Assembly: GCA_020848615.1 (NCBI GenBank)
Contig: JADLHW010000024.1
Location: 1 to 64,000 of the forward strand
Source: Thermoleophilia bacterium
GTDB lineage: Bacteria > Actinomycetota > Thermoleophilia > Miltoncostaeales > Miltoncostaeaceae
Reading direction: 5' to 3'
Length of the DNA stretch: 64,000 nt
Shown here: piece by piece, positions 9,950 to 60,834 of the stretch
Layout: each line of letters begins with the position of its first letter
How positions within the stretch are numbered: position 1 is the first letter of the stretch
The notes under the pieces: generated by a model
Seen by the model: the letters and a program-made list of their open reading frames with translations, nothing else
Database searches by the model: none
What the model was told of the DNA's origin: nothing
Program-made: the position numbers and the translations under genes

Positions 9950-9986
9950 CGTCTCCCGCACGGTCCGGGGCAGGCCCGTCCTCCAC

Positions 9987-10024
9987 GCGTTCGCCGAAAC
10001 CAGGCCCACGGTTTCGGCGAACGC
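9987..10024 (-). terminator. 15-bp perfect hairpin downstream of the alpha/beta hydrolase
   Basis: GCGTTCGCCGAAACC at 9987-10001 and its exact complement at 10010-10024 enclose an 8-nt loop. The hairpin begins 15 nt after the stop of the minus-strand hydrolase. No T-run follows on either side. Its position and strength fit a U-less terminator; a protein-binding site is the alternative. Confidence 0.55.
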
Positions 10025-10038
10025 CCATCGAGGGGCGA

Positions 10039-10839
10039 TCAGCGCAGGGCGCCCAGGATCCACTCGGTGGTGGCGGCCGGCGCGTCCATCGACGGCAGGT
10101 GGGCGCTGCCCGGCAGCATGCGCAGCCGCGCGCCGGGGACGCGTGCCGCGATGGCCTCGCACCGCTCCACCACGCCCGGCACGTCGCGCTCGCCGCACAG
10201 CACGTGCACCGGGGGCCGCAGCTCGCCCAGCCGGTTCCAGGCGTCGCCCGGGGCGGGGTCGTCCCCGGCGGGCGCGGCGCGGAGGATGGCGCCGTTCATC
10301 CGGAGGAACAGGTCGCGGGTGGCGCCGCCAACGCGCCCCTCCGGCTCCCCCGGACCGTCGAGCCACAGGTGCGCCTCCAGGGAGTTCACCTCGTCCAGGT
10401 CGCCCGCCGCCTCGGCGGCGTCGATCATGTGCGCCAGGTCACCCACGGCCCCCGGGGTCTCCAGCTCCGGCGCCCCGGACACCGCCGGTGAGATGAGCAG
10501 CAGCGCCGCCACGCGGGAGGGATGCGCGAGCGCCGCGTCGATCGCCACCCGGCCGCCCTGCGAGCACCCCACCAGCACCGCCGGCGGCTTCCGCGCCAGC
10601 GCGTCCAGCACCGCGACGAGGTCGTCCGCGTCGTGGCCGGCCCGCGCGGGGGTCGTCGTCGACCCGAACCCGGGCCGATCGTAGGCCACGGCGTGGTGGC
10701 CGGCCGCCACCGCCGGCAGCTGCGCCGCCCACATGCGGGCGTCCCCCACGCCGGCGTGCAGGAACACCACCGGCCGGCCCCGCCCGCCGTGCACCGCGTG
10801 GATCGTCGCGTCCCCCGTCGTGACCCTCGCGGTCACCAT
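10039..10839 (-). CDS. Alpha/beta-fold hydrolase
   Basis: A 266-residue cytoplasmic hydrolase of the alpha/beta superfamily. The oxyanion-side motif HAGVGDARMW follows the first strand. The nucleophile elbow is GCSQGG, the acid lies in LCGERD near the C-terminal third, and the catalytic histidine is in GSAHLPSMDAP close to the end, so the triad is complete. The start was placed at ATG 10839 because GGAGGG lies immediately upstream and the family fold begins there; GTG 10836 is nearly as good, while ATG 10872 adds 11 unconserved residues. Substrate cannot be inferred. The gene stands alone, ending in the strong hairpin at 9987-10024. Confidence 0.85.
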   Translation of the reverse strand: MVTARVTTGDATIHAVHGGRGRPVVFLHAGVGDARMWAAQLPAVAAGHHAVAYDRPGFGSTTTPARAGHDADDLVAVLDALARKPPAVLVGCSQGGRVAIDAALAHPSRVAALLLISPAVSGAPELETPGAVGDLAHMIDAAEAAGDLDEVNSLEAHLWLDGPGEPEGRVGGATRDLFLRMNGAILRAAPAGDDPAPGDAWNRLGELRPPVHVLCGERDVPGVVERCEAIAARVPGARLRMLPGSAHLPSMDAPAATTEWILGALR

Positions 10840-48623: not shown

Positions 48624-50546
48624 TCAGGCGCGCCCCGCCAGCCGCGGCACGTCGTCCGGGTCCGGCGCCCGATGCAGATGGTCCCAGATGTCCCGGGCGA
48701 CCTTCGGCGGCAGCCCGGGCACCGCCTCCAGCTCCTCCCGGGTGGCGTTCACGAAGCGCTCCGCCGTGCCGAAGTGCCGCAGGATCGCCTTCCGCCGCGA
48801 CGGCCCCACCCCGGGCAGGGCGTCGAAGATGCTGGCGGTCATGCCGCGCCCCCGGGACGCGCGGTGGTGGCGCAGGGCGAAGCGGTGCGCCTCGTCCCGG
48901 ATCTGCTGCAGCAGCTTCAGGCCCGCGGATGCCTCGGGCAGGAGCAGCGGGTCGCGGCGCCCCGGCAGGTACACCTCCTCGCGCTGCTTGGCGAGGCTCA
49001 CCACCGGCACGTCGGTGACGCCGGCCTCGGCCATGCCCTCGATCGCGGCGCCCAGCTGGCCCTTGCCGCCGTCGATGATCACCAGGCCCGGCCGCGCGCC
49101 GAACGACATGTCGCCGTCGTCCTGCGCGAGGCGCGCGAACCGGCGCAGCAGCGCCTCGCGCATGTTCGCGAAGTCGTTCTGGCCCCCGTCGAAGCGCATG
49201 GTGAAGGTGCGGTAGTGGGCCTTGCTGGGCGCGCCGCCCTCGAACACCACCATCGAGGCCACCGCGTGGGTGTCGCCGAGGTTGGAGATGTCGTAGCACT
49301 CCATCCGGATCGGCGGGGACGCCAGCCCCAGCCAGCCCTGCAGCTCGGTGAGCGCCTCCCGCCGGCGGGCCCGGGTGCGGTCGTGGCGGCGGCGGTCCTG
49401 GTCGAGGGCCAGCGCGGCGTTGCGCTGGGCGAGCTCGGCGAGCCGCGCCCGGTCCCCGCGCCCGGGCCGCACGTCGGCACGCGCGCCGCGCCGCTCCGAC
49501 AGCAGCGCCGACAGGTCGCCCATGCGGCCGATCTCGCGCGGCACGACCACCACCGGCGGGATCGCCATGGCCACCGAGTAGTACTCGATCGCGAAGCCCT
49601 CCAGCACGTCGGCCGGCACCTCGTCGCCCACGCCCTCCAGGAAGAACGACTGCCGGTCGCTCAGCACCCCGTCGCGCACCTGCATGACCTGCACGTTCGC
49701 GGCGTCCTCCGCCACCGCCACGCCCAGCACGTCCACGGTGCCGAGGTGCTCGCCCGAGGCGACCTGCCGCTCCATGAGGTGCCGCACCGCGGCCAGGCGG
49801 TTGCGGTACACCGCCGCGGACTCGTACTCCTGGCCGGCCGCGGCGTCGCGCATCTGCGCGTCGATCTCCTGCTCCAGGCCCCGGTAGCGGCCCGACAGGA
49901 ACGCGACGATCTGGTCGATGAGCGCCCGGTAGTCGTCGCGGGAGATGTAGTCGACGCACGGCGCCAGGCACCGCTTGATGTGGTAGTCGAGGCAGGGGAT
50001 GCCGCTCGGGCGGCCGGGTTCGGCGCCCTCGCACGGGCGGCTCGGGAAGATCTTCCCGATGAGCGACAGCGTCTCCCGCACCTTGCTGGCCGACGAGAAC
50101 GGCCCGAAGTACAGGCGGTCACGGCGGTGCCGCTCCCGCGTGAAGTACACGCGGGGATAGTCCTCGTCGAGGCTGATCGCGATGTACGGGTAGCTCTTGT
50201 CGTCGCGCAGCTTCACGTTGAACGGCGGCCGGTGACGCTTCACCAGGTTCGCCTCGAGGATGAGCGCCTCCGGCTCGGACGCGGTGACGATGGTCTCGAG
50301 CCGGTGGATGCGCTCCACCATGTCCCCCACCTTGGCGTGCTGCCCGGCGCGCGCGGTCATGGGCGCGGAGGGGTCCAGCGTCCGGTCGGGGCGCAGCGGC
50401 GCCTGGAAGTAGCTGAGCACCCGCTTGCGCAGGGACTTCGCCTTGCCGACGTAGAGCACGCGGTCCCCGGCGTCGCGGTACACGTACACGCCGGGCTGGT
50501 CGGGCAGCTCGGCGAGCTGCTCGCGCAGGAGGGACCGTTCGGGCAT
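48624..50546 (-). CDS. uvrC: Excinuclease ABC subunit C
   Basis: A 640-residue nucleotide-excision-repair endonuclease. The N-terminal GIY-YIG domain is seen in QPGVYVYRDAGDRVLYVGKAKSLRKRV. A UVR motif occurs near residue 205-240 (YRGLEQEIDAQMRDAAAGQ). The RNase-H-like second nuclease has CYDISNLGDTHAVASMV and LVIIDGGKGQL, and the last 60 residues form the helix-hairpin-helix pair (ALPGVGPSRRKAIL; AVPGLPPKVARDIW). Length is normal. The ATG at 50546 is the family start. Confidence 0.97.
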   Translation of the reverse strand: MPERSLLREQLAELPDQPGVYVYRDAGDRVLYVGKAKSLRKRVLSYFQAPLRPDRTLDPSAPMTARAGQHAKVGDMVERIHRLETIVTASEPEALILEANLVKRHRPPFNVKLRDDKSYPYIAISLDEDYPRVYFTRERHRRDRLYFGPFSSASKVRETLSLIGKIFPSRPCEGAEPGRPSGIPCLDYHIKRCLAPCVDYISRDDYRALIDQIVAFLSGRYRGLEQEIDAQMRDAAAGQEYESAAVYRNRLAAVRHLMERQVASGEHLGTVDVLGVAVAEDAANVQVMQVRDGVLSDRQSFFLEGVGDEVPADVLEGFAIEYYSVAMAIPPVVVVPREIGRMGDLSALLSERRGARADVRPGRGDRARLAELAQRNAALALDQDRRRHDRTRARRREALTELQGWLGLASPPIRMECYDISNLGDTHAVASMVVFEGGAPSKAHYRTFTMRFDGGQNDFANMREALLRRFARLAQDDGDMSFGARPGLVIIDGGKGQLGAAIEGMAEAGVTDVPVVSLAKQREEVYLPGRRDPLLLPEASAGLKLLQQIRDEAHRFALRHHRASRGRGMTASIFDALPGVGPSRRKAILRHFGTAERFVNATREELEAVPGLPPKVARDIWDHLHRAPDPDDVPRLAGRA

Positions 50547-54974: not shown

Positions 54975-56249
54975 TCAGGCGGCGATGGGCAGCAGCACCA
55001 CCGCCCCTGACGGCGACCCCGGGGCGAGCGCCGCCGCGCCGCCGGCGAGCGCCATGATCCGGGCCACGTAGGCCTGGGTCTCCGCGTACGGCGGCACCCC
55101 GCCGTAACGCCGCACCGCGCCGGCCCCCGCGTTGTACGCGGCGAGGGCCAGCGGCACCGACCCGAACGCCCGGATGTGGCCGCCCAGCAGCCGGCCCGCC
55201 GCCGGGATCGCCTGCATGGGGTCGAACGGGTCCCGCAACCCCATGCCCGCGGCGGTGGCCGGCATGAACTGCGCGATGCCGAGCGCCCCGGCGGGACTCA
55301 CCGCATCGGGGCGGTACCCGGACTCCGCCTGCAGCAGAGCCGCGAGCACCGCGGGCGGCACCCCGTTCGCCAGGGCCGACGCCATCACCACGCCGCGATA
55401 ACGCTCCGGCACCCACGCCGGCAGTCCCGCGGCGGGAAGCGCCACGGCGACCGCCCGGCGTGCCCCGTCGCCGTCCCCTCCCGCCGTCGCGGCGCCGCAC
55501 CCCGGCAGGTAGCCGAAGTGCCACGGCTCCCACGAGTACCGCTGGACGAAGCCGAACCGGCCGGCGTGCGCGGCGAGCCACGCCCCGGCCCCGCCACCGG
55601 TGGCGAGGTCCAGCTCGGTGGCGTCGCGGTGGCGGCTGCGGCCGGGCGGCGCGACCCACCGCGGGTCGGGGTGCCGGGCGAACAGCACGGCCTGCTCGGC
55701 GTCCGACCGGAAGCCGCTGACCACCGTCAGGTCGATTCCGTCGCCGTGCGCGGCGGCGTCCATGAGGTCGAAGGCGGCGGCGACCTGCGGGCACGTGGGT
55801 TTGCCGTCCCGGTGCACCAGCGGCCCGTCGTAGCCGCCGCCGGTGGCCATGGTGACGGGCCCGGCGTCCAGCGCGACGCGCACCTCCAGGCCCGCCCGTG
55901 CCCGCGCCGTCGCGACGGTGCCGAGCGGGCCGGGCACCGCGACCTCCACGTCCACCGCCACGGGCGGCCATGGCCCGGGCGCGTTCACGTGCGCGACGCG
56001 GCCACCGGCCGAGACGGCCGCGGGTCCGGCCGCGGCGCGCGCCGCCGCGGCCAGCGCACCCTCGTCGGCGGGGTCCGTGCCGAGCCGGGCCACCAGGGCG
56101 CGGGCGGCGGACAGGGCGGCGAGATCCGCGGCGCGCTGGGCCCGGGCGGCCGCCGCGTGGGCCGCGCCGAGGATCCCGACCATCGCGACGCCGAGGATCA
56201 CGAGGACGCCGAGCGCCATGACCGGGATGACCGCCTGGCCGCGGCTCAC
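54975..56249 (-). CDS. TadG-like anchor fused to VanY-type D,D-carboxypeptidase and lytic transglycosylase
   Basis: A 424-residue three-part protein. Residues 1-50 (SRGQAVIPVMALGVLVILG, then RAQRAADLAALSAARAL) are a TadG/TadE-type pilin-like transmembrane head. Residues about 150-252 match VanY D-Ala-D-Ala carboxypeptidases: SGFRSDAEQAVLF, then His207 and Asp214 in SRHRDATELDL and Glu241/His244 in SWEPWHFGY, a complete zinc site. Residues about 280-405 are an SLT lytic transglycosylase with Glu309 in LLQAESGY, then GALGIAQFMPATA and ALAAYNAGAGAV. The GTG at 56249 overlaps the upstream TadE-like gene (GTGA). It would sit outside the membrane and cut both peptide and glycan of peptidoglycan. 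The fusion is not one I know. Confidence 0.85.
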   Translation of the reverse strand: MSRGQAVIPVMALGVLVILGVAMVGILGAAHAAAARAQRAADLAALSAARALVARLGTDPADEGALAAAARAAAGPAAVSAGGRVAHVNAPGPWPPVAVDVEVAVPGPLGTVATARARAGLEVRVALDAGPVTMATGGGYDGPLVHRDGKPTCPQVAAAFDLMDAAAHGDGIDLTVVSGFRSDAEQAVLFARHPDPRWVAPPGRSRHRDATELDLATGGGAGAWLAAHAGRFGFVQRYSWEPWHFGYLPGCGAATAGGDGDGARRAVAVALPAAGLPAWVPERYRGVVMASALANGVPPAVLAALLQAESGYRPDAVSPAGALGIAQFMPATAAGMGLRDPFDPMQAIPAAGRLLGGHIRAFGSVPLALAAYNAGAGAVRRYGGVPPYAETQAYVARIMALAGGAAALAPGSPSGAVVLLPIAA

Positions 56250-56500
56250 GGGAGCCGCACCGCGCCGGCGGCGGCGGCCCGCACCCCGAACGGGCCGGGC
56301 ACCGGCACCTCCGCGGTGACGGTGACCACCGCGCCCGCCGGGCCGGTGGCGTGCAGGGCGGCGCGCCGCACCCCCTCCTCGGCGTCGATCACCGCGCGGC
56401 ACGCCGCGGCGACCTGCCAGGCCAGCAGGGCGGCGGCCAGGATGACCGGGACCGCGGCCAGCAGTTCCAGCGTCGCCTGCCCGCGCGAGCGGTGGGTCAC
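56246..56500 (-). CDS. TadE-like pseudopilin (second)
   Basis: An 84-residue single-helix protein of TadE type: the short basic leader MTHRSRGQATLELLAAVPV places a Gly-Gln-Ala-Thr-Leu-Glu junction before one hydrophobic helix, as in TadE minor pilins. A small beta region (VVTVTAEVPVPGPFGV) follows. The start overlaps the upstream TadE-like stop and the stop overlaps the TadG fusion gene, so all three are co-translated. It probably assembles with them at the cell surface. Confidence 0.8.
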   Translation of the reverse strand: MTHRSRGQATLELLAAVPVILAAALLAWQVAAACRAVIDAEEGVRRAALHATGPAGAVVTVTAEVPVPGPFGVRAAAAGAVRLP

Positions 56501-56823
56501 CGGGTGACCACCTCGGCCGTGACGGTGAGGGGGACCCGCCCGGCCCAGGGCAGCGGCGGCGAGGGGAGGCGCAGCTCGATGCGGCCGGGCCGGGAGGGGT
56601 CGGTGCGGGCGACGGCCGCCGGGGCGGCGGCGCGGACGAGGGGTGCGGGGTCCTCACCCACGCCGGCGGCGCGGGCGCCCGCCCGGGCCGCGCCGCCGGC
56701 CTGCAGCCACGCGGCCGAGCAGGCCACGAGCCACCATGCGGCGAGGGCCAGGACGGCCATGGCGGGCAGCACCGCGACGAGCTCCACCGTCGCCTGCCCG
56801 CCGTGTCGCGCCGTCCGCCGCAT
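56497..56823 (-). CDS. TadE-like pseudopilin (first)
   Basis: A 108-residue protein opening MRRTARHGGQATVELVAVLP, the TadE-like signal and start of the transmembrane helix, followed by AVLALAAWWLVACSAAWLQ. The C-terminal part is a small strand-rich domain (VPLTVTAEVV), shared with the second copy. No prepilin peptidase, TadA ATPase or Flp pilin is encoded nearby in this window. The ATG at 56823 has TAGCCT 7 nt upstream. Confidence 0.8.
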   Translation of the reverse strand: MRRTARHGGQATVELVAVLPAMAVLALAAWWLVACSAAWLQAGGAARAGARAAGVGEDPAPLVRAAAPAAVARTDPSRPGRIELRLPSPPLPWAGRVPLTVTAEVVTR

Positions 56824-56909: not shown

Positions 56910-57278
56910 TCAGTGCCAGCGGCGGCTCCGCCGGACGATCCACAGGATGGCCAGCGCGCACGCCGCGGCGAGCGCCAGCACCCCGAGCCCCGAGATGTGC
57001 GGGCCCAGCAGCGGGATCCCGAGGACGAGTAGCAGCAGGATCGCGACGCCCAGCGCGATGATCGCCTTGCGCTGCCACGCGGGGATGACCATCCATGCCA
57101 GCTCGTTCTGCCGGAAGTACTGGTAGGCCATGACCGCCAGCCCGGCGACGAACAGCACGAAGATGATCTGGTTGAGGGACACCGCCACGGTCCCGAAGCC
57201 CCGCTGGGACACGAAGACCAGCGCCGCGATCCCCATGACGATCGCGATGTTCCGCACGGCGTTCATGTTCAGCTTCAT
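56910..57278 (-). CDS. Small four-helix membrane protein of unknown function
   Basis: A 122-residue protein with four hydrophobic stretches: NIAIVMGIAALVFVSQ, IIFVLFVAGLAVMAYQYF, AIIALGVAILLLLVLGIP and LGVLALAAACALAILWIV. The N-terminus (MKLNMNAVRN) is short and the C-terminus basic (RRSRRWH). No family is recognised. The ATG at 57278 was chosen from the topology; TACGAT lies 10 nt upstream on the minus strand. It is divergent from tatA. Confidence 0.7.
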   Translation of the reverse strand: MKLNMNAVRNIAIVMGIAALVFVSQRGFGTVAVSLNQIIFVLFVAGLAVMAYQYFRQNELAWMVIPAWQRKAIIALGVAILLLLVLGIPLLGPHISGLGVLALAAACALAILWIVRRSRRWH

Positions 57279-57386: not shown

Positions 57387-57665
57387 ATGTTCGACATCTC
57401 GCCCATCCAGATCATGCTGGTGCTGGCGCTCGCGCTGATCGTGTTCGGACCCAGGCGCCTGCCGGAGCTGGGCCGCAACCTCGGGAAGGGCCTGCGGGAC
57501 TTCAAGGGCGGGCTCGCCGGCGAGCCGGTCCACGACCCCGACCCCACCGCCGCGCGGGTCGCCCACGACCAGGACGACGACGCCCAGGACCTTCGCCGCA
57601 TCATCACCGACGGCGCGACCCCGGAGGCCGTGCGGCACGAGGACGCCGCGTCGCGCGCGGCGTGA
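57387..57665 (+). CDS. tatA: Sec-independent protein translocase subunit TatA/E
   Basis: A 92-residue Tat component: the short N-terminal helix SPIQIMLVLALALIVFGP, the hinge RRLPELGRNLG, then the amphipathic helix KGLRDFKGGL and an acidic tail. The FGPRRLPELGR motif is diagnostic; the terminal region (AQDLRRIITDG) is not conserved. It forms the TatA pore with TatC, which is not in this window. The ATG at 57387 follows GGGAGGCACGG. Confidence 0.9.
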   Translation: MFDISPIQIMLVLALALIVFGPRRLPELGRNLGKGLRDFKGGLAGEPVHDPDPTAARVAHDQDDDAQDLRRIITDGATPEAVRHEDAASRAA

Positions 57666-57825: not shown

Positions 57826-60800
57826 GTGACACGCAGGCGAATCGCACTCCTCACGGCGGCCGCCGCGGCCGCCGCCGGCACGGCCATGGCGACCGGCTCC
57901 GCGGCGGGGGCGCTCCCCGAGCACCTCGCGGCCCGGCACACCGCGCCGGCCACCGCATCCAAGGACGTCACCGTGATCCTGCGGCTGGCCGGGCAGCCCG
58001 TGGCCGCCCAGGAGGCCGCCGTGCAGGGCACGGCCCGCGTGGCGACCTGGCGGAGCGCCCGGGTGCGCGCCGGTCTCGTCGCCCGGCAACGGCGGCTGGT
58101 GCCGCGGCTGCGGGCGCGCGGCGCGAGGGTGATCGCCACGTACCGCGACGCCTACAACGGCGTCGCGGTACGCGTGCCGGCGAACCGCGTCGCCGCGCTG
58201 CGCACCCTCCCCGGCGTCGTGGCCGTCCACCGCAGCCACCGCGTGAGCCGGGCCCTCACCTCCGCGGTGCCGTTCACCGGCGTGCCGTCGGCGTGGCAGG
58301 ACCCCGGGTACACGGGCCGCGGCGTCCGCATCGGCATCATCGACAGCGGCGTCGACTTCCACCACGCCGACCTCGGCGGTTCCGGTGACCCGTCGGCGTT
58401 CGCCGCCGATGCCGGCACCGACCCCGCCGCATCGGGATTCCCCACGGCGAAGGTCGCCGGCGGGTACGACTTCGTGGGCGACGCCTACGACCCGTCGGAC
58501 CCCGCCACCGCGACCCCGCGGCCCGACCGCGTGCCCCTGGACTGCGAGGGCCACGGCACCCACGTGGCCGGCATCGCCGCCGGCACCGGCGTGCGTCAGG
58601 ACGGCACCCCCTACACCGGTCCATACACGGAGGGCGCCCTCGCCTCGCAGGGGTTCCGGGTGGGTCCCGGCGTGGCCCCGGAGGCCAGGGTGTACGCGTA
58701 CCGGGTGTTCGGCTGCGGCAGCGGGGACGCCGAGGACACCGTGATCATGGCCGCCATCGACCGTGCCGTGCGGGACCGCGTCGACGTCATCAACATGTCG
58801 CTCAGCGGGGTGTACACCGGGAGCGACGAGCCCCTCGCCGCGGCGGTGCGCACCGCCACCCGGGCCGGCGTGACGGTGGTCGCCGCCACCGGCAACGAGG
58901 GCCCCGGGGCCTACACCGGCGGATCGCCGGCCGCGGCGGACACCGCCATCGCGGTCGGCGCGGCCGACTCGGTCGCCGACTACACGGGCGCCACCCTCCA
59001 GGGCCCGTCCCTGTCCGCCACCGTCGTCCAGGAGACCACCGGGGCGACGATCCCCGGGGGGCTGCAGGGGACGCTCACGGTGACCGGCACCCCGGGGATG
59101 CTGGGCGCCGGATGCGACGCCGCCGACTACGCATCCGTGCCCGCCGGGGGCATCCCGGTGGTGATCCTCGGGATCTGCGACCACCGCACCAAGGCGCTGC
59201 TGGCGCAGGCCGCCGGGGCCCCCGCGGTGATCCTCGTGAGCAACGACACCGGGTACGGGACCACCGATGATGCGCTGCCGGACGTCACGATCCCGGTGCT
59301 GGTCGCCCCGGTGGACGCCCTCGCGGCCCTGCGCGCCGCCGACGGCACCGCGGTGTCGGTGACGCCCGCCCCGCGCCTGGCGAACCCCCTGTTCCGCCGC
59401 GCGGAGGTGTGGACCTCCTCCGGGCCGCGGTGGAACGACTCCGCCCTGAAGCCCGACGTCGTGGCCCCGGGCGTGGACATCGCCTCCGCGGCCGTCGGCA
59501 CCGGCACCGCCGCCGTCCGCCACTCCGGGACCTCGATGGCGTCTCCGTACGCCGCCGGGATCGCGGCACTGGTGCGGCAGGCCCACCCGGGCTGGAGCCC
59601 CGCCGACGTGAAGGCCGCGATCATGGGGACGGCCTCCGCCGACGCGGCGGACCTCGCCGCCGCCGACGTGCTCACCTCCGGGGCCGGGCTCGTGCAGCCG
59701 GCGCGGGCCGTGCGCGCCACGGTGCGGGCCACCACGTCCGACGGCCTCGGCAACCTGTCGTTCGGGTACCGCCCGGCGAACGGCGCGATCTCCGAGACCC
59801 GCCGGTTCCGCATCACCAACGACGGCTCCCGGTCGGTCACGTACACGATCGCGACGGACGCCGGCGGCGACCTCCACGGCGCCCGCCTGTCCCTGTCGGA
59901 CACCCGGGTGACGGTCCCGGCCCGCGGCTCGGTGAACGTGTCGCTCGCCGTGAGCCTCTCCAGGTCGGCCGTGGCGGGCCTGCCCGGCGCCGGCGACGGC
60001 CTCACCACCGTGCGCGGCGCGGTGGTCGCGACGCCGGTGACGGCCCGGGAGGGGGCGTACGCGCTCCGCGTGCCCTTCCTGCTGGTCCCGGCCGGCCGCT
60101 CCGCCGTCTCCACGGGGAACACCCGCCTGCGCACCGTCTCCGGCGGCGCCCGCCGGGTGACCGTGCCGGTGGAGAACTCCGGCGTGCACGGCACCCGCGT
60201 GGGCGTGTTCGCCTGGGGCCTGGCGGACCCGTCCGGGGACGCCGAGGACACCGTCGACATCCGCACCGCCGGGGTGCAGACGGTCGCCGGGACGGACCCG
60301 GCCCTGCTGTTCGCGGTCACCCTGGGCGACGCCCTCGCGAACCCCGCGCGGACGGAGTTCGACGTCTCCATCGACACCGACGGCGACGACTCCGCCGACC
60401 TGCTGCTGGTGGGCGTCGACTCCGGGCTCGCCGACATCGGCTCCCACAACGGCCGCATGCAGGCGTTCGTGATCGACGCGTCCGGCGCCATCATCGACCG
60501 TCTCGAGATGACCGCGCCGCTGAACGGCGGGACGGTGCTCATGCCGCTGCCGCTGCGCCACATCGGCGACGCCACCGCGATCACCTACGGGGTGACCACG
60601 TACGACACCCTCACGGGGGACGAGGACGGCACGGGCACCGCGCGGTACCGGCCGCTCGCGCCCGCGGTGGAGAACGGCGCGACGGTCGCCCTCGCGGCCG
60701 GGCAGGAGCGGACCCTCACCCTGTCCGCGGCCTCGCCGGCCGCCGGGGACCCGCTGGGATGGCTGCTGGTCGCCCTGGACGACCCGTCGGGGATCGGCCA

Positions 60801-60834
60801 GGCCAACCCGGTGCCGATGCCGCGCAAGCGGTGA
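57826..60834 (+). CDS. Secreted subtilisin-like serine protease (S8) with PA domain
   Basis: A 1002-residue exported protease. A signal peptide covers about residues 1-30 and an I9-type propeptide about 45-140. The catalytic triad is complete: Asp173 in IGIIDSGVDF, His243 in EGHGTHVAGIAAG, and Ser570 in SGTSMASPYAAG. A protease-associated (PA) insert lies about 390-515, before the Ser region. The last 370 residues form beta-rich Fn3-like domains resembling the C-terminal part of large subtilases (C5a peptidase-like). The GTG at 57826 follows GGGGGC and begins the signal peptide (MTRRRIALLTAAAA). It probably processes or degrades proteins outside the cell. Confidence 0.93.
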   Translation: MTRRRIALLTAAAAAAAGTAMATGSAAGALPEHLAARHTAPATASKDVTVILRLAGQPVAAQEAAVQGTARVATWRSARVRAGLVARQRRLVPRLRARGARVIATYRDAYNGVAVRVPANRVAALRTLPGVVAVHRSHRVSRALTSAVPFTGVPSAWQDPGYTGRGVRIGIIDSGVDFHHADLGGSGDPSAFAADAGTDPAASGFPTAKVAGGYDFVGDAYDPSDPATATPRPDRVPLDCEGHGTHVAGIAAGTGVRQDGTPYTGPYTEGALASQGFRVGPGVAPEARVYAYRVFGCGSGDAEDTVIMAAIDRAVRDRVDVINMSLSGVYTGSDEPLAAAVRTATRAGVTVVAATGNEGPGAYTGGSPAAADTAIAVGAADSVADYTGATLQGPSLSATVVQETTGATIPGGLQGTLTVTGTPGMLGAGCDAADYASVPAGGIPVVILGICDHRTKALLAQAAGAPAVILVSNDTGYGTTDDALPDVTIPVLVAPVDALAALRAADGTAVSVTPAPRLANPLFRRAEVWTSSGPRWNDSALKPDVVAPGVDIASAAVGTGTAAVRHSGTSMASPYAAGIAALVRQAHPGWSPADVKAAIMGTASADAADLAAADVLTSGAGLVQPARAVRATVRATTSDGLGNLSFGYRPANGAISETRRFRITNDGSRSVTYTIATDAGGDLHGARLSLSDTRVTVPARGSVNVSLAVSLSRSAVAGLPGAGDGLTTVRGAVVATPVTAREGAYALRVPFLLVPAGRSAVSTGNTRLRTVSGGARRVTVPVENSGVHGTRVGVFAWGLADPSGDAEDTVDIRTAGVQTVAGTDPALLFAVTLGDALANPARTEFDVSIDTDGDDSADLLLVGVDSGLADIGSHNGRMQAFVIDASGAIIDRLEMTAPLNGGTVLMPLPLRHIGDATAITYGVTTYDTLTGDEDGTGTARYRPLAPAVENGATVALAAGQERTLTLSAASPAAGDPLGWLLVALDDPSGIGQANPVPMPRKR

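Follow-up and report, generated by a model that had tools for sequence, protein, structure and literature searches.

A TadG-like protein fused to VanY and SLT peptidoglycan enzymes in Thermoleophilia: a putative minor-pilin set proposed to open the wall for a Tad pilus

Proteins of the TadE, TadF and TadG type have been modelled as a complex that primes Tad (Flp, Tfpc) pili and sits at their tip, where the large subunit has its C-terminal part exposed, and it was proposed in 2025 that the C-termini of TadG proteins customise Tad tips (PMC12075869). Some minor-pilin sets of the Myxococcus Kil system are encoded apart from the main cluster; the main text of the paper that describes them contains neither the word peptidoglycan nor the word hydrolase (PMC12075869). 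TadG is described as uncharacterised in a 2025 structural paper, according to which no peptidoglycan hydrolase or lytic transglycosylase had been reported with Tad, unlike related appendages (PMC12307814). A precedent exists in the Gram-positive Streptococcus sanguinis, where the wall hydrolase LytF promotes the export of a type IV filament (PMC13192262). Here we describe, from computational analysis, an operon of Thermoleophilia bacterium (GCA_020848615.1, a draft of 183 contigs) in which a TadG-like protein continues into a VanY-type peptidase domain and an SLT lytic transglycosylase domain. It lies in the window that was analysed, a stretch of DNA comprising positions 1-64,000 of the forward strand of contig JADLHW010000024.1. 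The operon is probably a TadEFG-type set of minor pilins for the priming or the tip of a Tad/Flp pilus, with a large subunit that opens the cell's own wall.

The genes run in the order TadE1, TadE2 and fusion along the minus strand, from 56823 to 54975. Both junctions are 4-base GTGA overlaps, in which the stop codon of the upstream gene overlaps the GTG start of the next, and TadE2 overlaps both of its neighbours in this way. A reading made from the sequence alone (hereafter the sequence-only reading) had described three overlapping genes encoding two TadE-like proteins and one of 424 residues, an account that the gene calls and the junctions bear out. The components are as follows.

56497..56823, minus strand: TadE1, a TadE-type pseudopilin of 108 residues (borderline PF07811, a TadE_Rv3655c match and a G|QATVE motif)
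56246..56500, minus strand: TadE2, a TadE-like pseudopilin of 84 residues (assigned from its motif, its hydrophobic N-terminus, its position and its recurrence in relatives)
54975..56249, minus strand: the TadG-VanY-SLT fusion, 424 residues with a GTG start (three Pfam domains, orthologues across the class)
55884..56249, minus strand: TadG-like head of the fusion, residues 1-122 (PF13400 and AlphaFold2 models)
55503..55787, minus strand: VanY (M15B) peptidase domain of the fusion, residues 155-249 (PF02557, conserved residues, structure matches)
55098..55379, minus strand: SLT lytic transglycosylase domain of the fusion, residues 291-384 (PF01464, E309, Slt and MltD structures)

The locus resembles the TadE/TadF/TadG set of Tad pili in having two TadE-type genes and a larger PF13400 protein, in the RG|QA context and in its co-occurrence with TadA. 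It differs in that VanY and SLT domains form the C-terminus of the large protein, and in that the operon stands apart from the Tad cluster, near uvrC. The Kil tips (KilL/KilM/KilN) are likewise a three-gene minor-pilin set with a similar head and a large subunit that is modular at its C-terminus, but the C-terminal part of the fusion is predicted to be enzymatic and is conserved. LytF and, putatively, the fusion are both wall hydrolases tied to pilus export; LytF, however, is a separate, competence-induced protein of the com pilus, unfused to any pilin. In the open-access literature, searches on lytic transglycosylases together with Tad or TadE, and on Tad pili of Thermoleophilia or Solirubrobacter, turned up no earlier account of a TadG-VanY-SLT fusion, and the sequence-only reading had likewise not recognised the combination. 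The parts are known, and their union is new among the papers found.

All three domains of the fusion exceed their Pfam cut-offs, and the composition first read from the letters thereby stands. VanY (PF02557) matches with an E-value of 1.2e-13 and SLT (PF01464) with 1.2e-22, while the Tad domain (PF13400) spans residues 4-51 with an E-value of 3.2e-05 and 24.6 bits against a cut-off of 22.3. The zinc ligands H207, D214 and H244 and the catalytic E241 of the VanY domain are found exactly where the sequence-only reading had placed them, as is the catalytic E309 in the ES motif of the SLT domain. None of H207, D214 and E241 is substituted in any of 30 sequences, and 29 of them retain H244; of the 27 sequences extending to the position of E309, 26 have the glutamate, the exception being a glycine in one draft. 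Both catalytic sites are therefore almost invariant and, as judged from sequence, intact, and the domains are predicted to be peptidoglycan enzymes.

The closest solved structures, by Foldseek and profile searches, are BaLdcB and VanYB for the VanY domain and Slt and MltD for the SLT domain. The usual VanY-type motif is SxHxxGxAxD. Although the fusion shares the fold and the catalytic residues of the VanY/LdcB-type M15B peptidases, this motif is replaced by SxHRxxTELD, which its family conserves. The SLT domain has the fold and the ES, GIAQ and AAYN motifs of SLT family 1 (Slt70, LtgA, MltD and the two-domain SLT enzymes of mobile elements); it differs from these in its pilin-type anchor and in having VanY as its partner domain. 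In proteins of Actinomycetes with the nearest SLT domains, inspected by eye, SLT is likewise accompanied by another wall domain.

At its presumed processing site, the head of the fusion carries a glycine, Gly4, which is found in 28 of 29 sequences. The head shares this residue and its RGQA context with both TadE proteins but, unlike them, lacks a glutamate at +5. PF13400 is matched individually by 11 of 23 orthologues at E <= 0.01. An AlphaFold2 model of the whole fusion, built from the 23 orthologues, has a mean predicted local distance difference test score (pLDDT) of 82 and displays in order the head, the VanY domain, a linker and the SLT domain, the linker (253-274) being modelled at low confidence. 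Modelled alone, the head reaches a pLDDT of 90.5; it comprises a 50-residue helix (7-56), a second helix (63-80) and three strands (84-122).

The two small proteins are predicted to be pseudopilins with prepilin-peptidase motifs, TadE1 from a borderline family match and TadE2 from its motif and position. TadE1 scores 22.0 bits against PF07811 as a protein (cut-off 22.9) and 23.3 bits, above the cut-off, in a six-frame search of the genome; it also matches TadE_Rv3655c of NCBIfam with an E-value of 8e-6, below the cut-off of that model. TadE2 has no family match in Pfam or NCBIfam. Their motifs, G|QATVE in TadE1 and G|QATLE in TadE2, each precede a hydrophobic stretch, and in most relatives with sufficient flanking sequence G|QAxxE motifs are again present upstream of the fusion.

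Very probably, the surface structure that the operon serves is a Tad/Flp pilus whose genes are located at other sites of the genome. The sequence-only reading had noted that the window lacks TadA, TadB, TadC and Flp. This agrees with the genes called in its second half, which include none of the four (the first half was not searched separately), and with a whole-genome T2SSE search that found no TadA-type ATPase on this contig. The end of contig C93 of the same genome encodes an RcpC/CpaB-like protein, TadZ, TadA and the start of TadB; the TadB fragment was found by gene calling alone, a T2SSF search of the source genome having given no match. A prepilin peptidase is encoded in the genome as well. 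In the sister species and other fusion genomes the Tad cluster extends to TadB and TadC, and in some of them to a small Flp-like prepilin; TadC and the Flp-like prepilin were seen in those genomes only, not in the source genome as assembled. Distant tad loci, for which the sequence-only reading had suggested a survey, are present in the source organism and its relatives.

In most fusion genomes checked, the fusion occupies the place of TadG. The Tad clusters of the sister species and other fusion genomes show no TadE or TadG; at loci L076 and L077, from outgroup families that lack the fusion, TadE- and TadG-like genes lie inside the Tad cluster. TadE1 of the operon is the sole TadE match in a six-frame search of the source genome. 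When 30 genomes were searched with PF13400, the fusion head was the one strong match in most fusion genomes, the exceptions being G009, G018 and G227, with no match at threshold, and G050, with weak extra matches. Ordinary TadG proteins are present in five checked genomes that have TadA and lack the fusion (G039, G043, G048, G146 and G217). G356 has the fusion and an ordinary TadG, the latter in an additional Tad locus that also contains Flp and TadE.

The fusion co-occurs with TadA. A profile of 23 orthologues was run against 399 Thermoleophilia genomes, with E < 1e-55 taken as a strong match: 124 genomes have both fusion and TadA, 28 the fusion only, 113 TadA only and 134 neither (Fisher p 5e-13, in a test that ignores relatedness). 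TadA is present in 57 of the 62 fusion genomes that are at least 95% complete. Genus g9 (for example G009, G018, G021 and G028) has the fusion and a single match to the ATPase superfamily, TadA, and genus g2 (G013, G020 and G023) lacks both TadA and the fusion while having other ATPases of that superfamily. In G020 (L190) the genes thrS, membrane protein, uvrC, rapZ and yvcK remain in order, and a gene for a transporter of the major facilitator superfamily replaces the three pilin genes. G032 was scored as having TadA without the fusion because its contig stops just after TadE2. Many of the surveyed genomes are drafts, and single absences therefore mean little.

Bacteria of this phylum are monoderm. 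In the mechanism proposed here, the motor and platform genes of the served pilus would lie elsewhere in the chromosome and the fusion would be its TadG subunit, with the pilin-like head either membrane-embedded or at the filament's end and the VanY-type metallopeptidase and SLT transglycosylase in place of the usual C-terminal domain. A complex of TadE1, TadE2 and the fusion would prime pilus assembly at TadA/B/C. From a position at the outer end of the growing filament, the enzymes would cut stem peptides and glycan strands in the wall of the cell itself, and the opening would let the pilus pass. We infer that the fusion is assembled into the pilus, that both domains are catalytic and that their target is the cell's own wall. 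Since VanY and SLT stand in the exposed C-terminal place of TadG, a priming or tip complex that cuts a passage through the wall is the simplest account, and how strongly the enzymes are conserved speaks for a standing role in the wall of the cell itself. The best-supported function is the one put forward by the sequence-only reading, a local opening of the wall for a surface structure, which can be specified further as very probably the Tad/Flp pilus. It is also possible, though we offer this tentatively, that the tip acts as a drill, with the VanY-SLT pair displayed at the filament's end and cutting through the wall of its own cell as it emerges, and perhaps through that of a touched cell too.

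Several observations weigh against this interpretation. The operon is not linked to the Tad cluster, and the remaining five of the 62 most complete fusion genomes show no TadA. Some f7 genomes carry TadA without the fusion, and Tad therefore does not need it everywhere. The relatedness left out of the Fisher test is a further point. The version of the fusion in genus g8 seems to lack the SLT half and to end after VanY (L193/G008, near 9950-10702; L031/G017); in G008, no SLT domain was found downstream of VanY in the three frames read. Finally, a fold search with the head alone matched no solved structure, and the label pilin-like therefore rests on PF13400 and the layout of the model.

An alternative is an enzyme that works from the base of the machine, anchored in the membrane at the Tad apparatus and making or widening the passage from below without ever entering the filament. 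Classical type IV secretion systems and flagella employ local wall enzymes, and the missing glutamate at +5 sets the fusion apart from TadE1 and TadE2. Gly4 and the RGQA context that it shares with them argue the other way, as does the modelling of TadG-type proteins as the backbone of the tip (PMC12075869), and we consider a purely basal enzyme rather unlikely. Somewhat less likely still is a tip displayed outside the cell, whose enzymes would attack the wall of neighbours for predation or for the release of DNA for uptake, a kind of action put forward in general terms for the Kil tips. Tad tips of Myxococcus do kill prey on contact, with TadG-like C-termini exposed at the extremity (PMC12075869), and Micrococcus luteus, an actinobacterium, uses Flp pili for DNA uptake (PMC6916266). 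The domains of the fusion, however, are almost invariant and single-copy, unlike variable tips that meet different prey, and no needle-less type III secretion system or immunity-type gene was seen beside the operon, although no systematic search was made.

The same unlinked position, together with the 28 fusion genomes without TadA, would also suit a general wall-remodelling enzyme that has borrowed a pilin-type membrane anchor and is unrelated to Tad. This seems very improbable: two TadE-type genes accompany the fusion in most relatives with enough flank, the fusion fills the place of TadG and is absent jointly with Tad in g2, and drafts explain some of the absences, G032 being a case in the opposite direction. 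The source genome also has T2SSE-family ATPases besides TadA, and a PilB/PilT-type machine might be thought to use the operon for a type IVa pilus. The patterns in g9, where TadA is the only such ATPase found, and in g2, where other ATPases occur and the fusion does not, make such service unlikely, and we give it hardly any weight.

Assignment of the operon to priming or the tip of a Tad pilus would make the fusion a first candidate for explaining how Tad pili cross the cell wall, and an enzymatic tip, if real, would be the first wall-cutting part reported for such a pilus. One protein, well conserved across families of the class, unites the role of TadG with two wall enzymes, so that wall passage and that role can both be tested directly in cultured bacteria, for example Conexibacter arvalis or Solirubrobacter. 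It would also extend to enzymes the proposal that TadG C-termini customise Tad tips (PMC12075869).

In a set of 61 related genomes, orthologues of full length were found in family f1 and in two other families of its class, f5 and f7. Across the class, 152 of the 399 genomes match the profile strongly (f1, f5, f7, f9 and f10); among the matches listed, most span nearly the whole profile and some are cut by contig ends. Carriers include Miltoncostaeaceae among the closest relatives, Solirubrobacterales among others, and the isolates Conexibacter arvalis, Solirubrobacter taibaiensis, S. deserti and Patulibacter medicamentivorans. In a sample of 396 genomes of the phylum, the matches listed outside the class cover the SLT domain only. 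The sequence-only reading had held that absence from close relatives would point to an assembly join of separate genes, to which a draft assembly lends some colour; the fusion is present in those relatives. An assembly join is refuted by the same domain order in single-contig genomes (among them G012, G050, G103, G113, G121, G197 and G227), and isolates such as C. arvalis share that order.

The order thrS, a membrane protein of about 120 residues, TadE1, TadE2, fusion, uvrC, rapZ and yvcK is common to close relatives, with local variations, so that the arrangement of the operon holds beyond the source genome. Genes of relatives were called with a simple codon-usage script rather than a standard gene finder. 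Two conserved neighbours lie outside the unit.

56910..57278, minus strand: membrane protein of 122 residues, conserved upstream neighbour, present in genus g2 too
48624..50546, minus strand: uvrC, conserved downstream landmark, in a gene order common to relatives

The membrane protein was considered as a fourth subunit and rejected because it is retained in g2, where TadA and the fusion are absent. In Solirubrobacterales a protein of about 213 residues often lies between TadE2 and the fusion (L114:4863-5504, L127:5036-5689, L042:10786-11421 and others). It has no Pfam match where scanned and is weakly similar to TadZ/MinD proteins (hhalign E 2.5e-4, probability 43%). In G050, which is of the Solirubrobacterales type, the same position holds an M23 peptidase with a FlgD-type immunoglobulin domain (L041:10698-11513, minus strand), a third wall enzyme within the operon.

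In several fusion genomes (L062, L064, L065 and L080) the main Tad cluster lies near an apparent division and cell wall cluster, with genes named by eye as mraZ, rsmH, ftsL, ftsI, murE and murF. Metagenome-assembled genomes titled Bifidobacterium breve (L087, L124, L127, L133 and L134) carry a locus of the Thermoleophilia type, and their titles look wrong. Upstream of the operon in the window, on the plus strand, are a TatA gene (57387-57665), which is the nearer, and a long gene (57886-60834) that by eye resembles a subtilisin-type serine protease.
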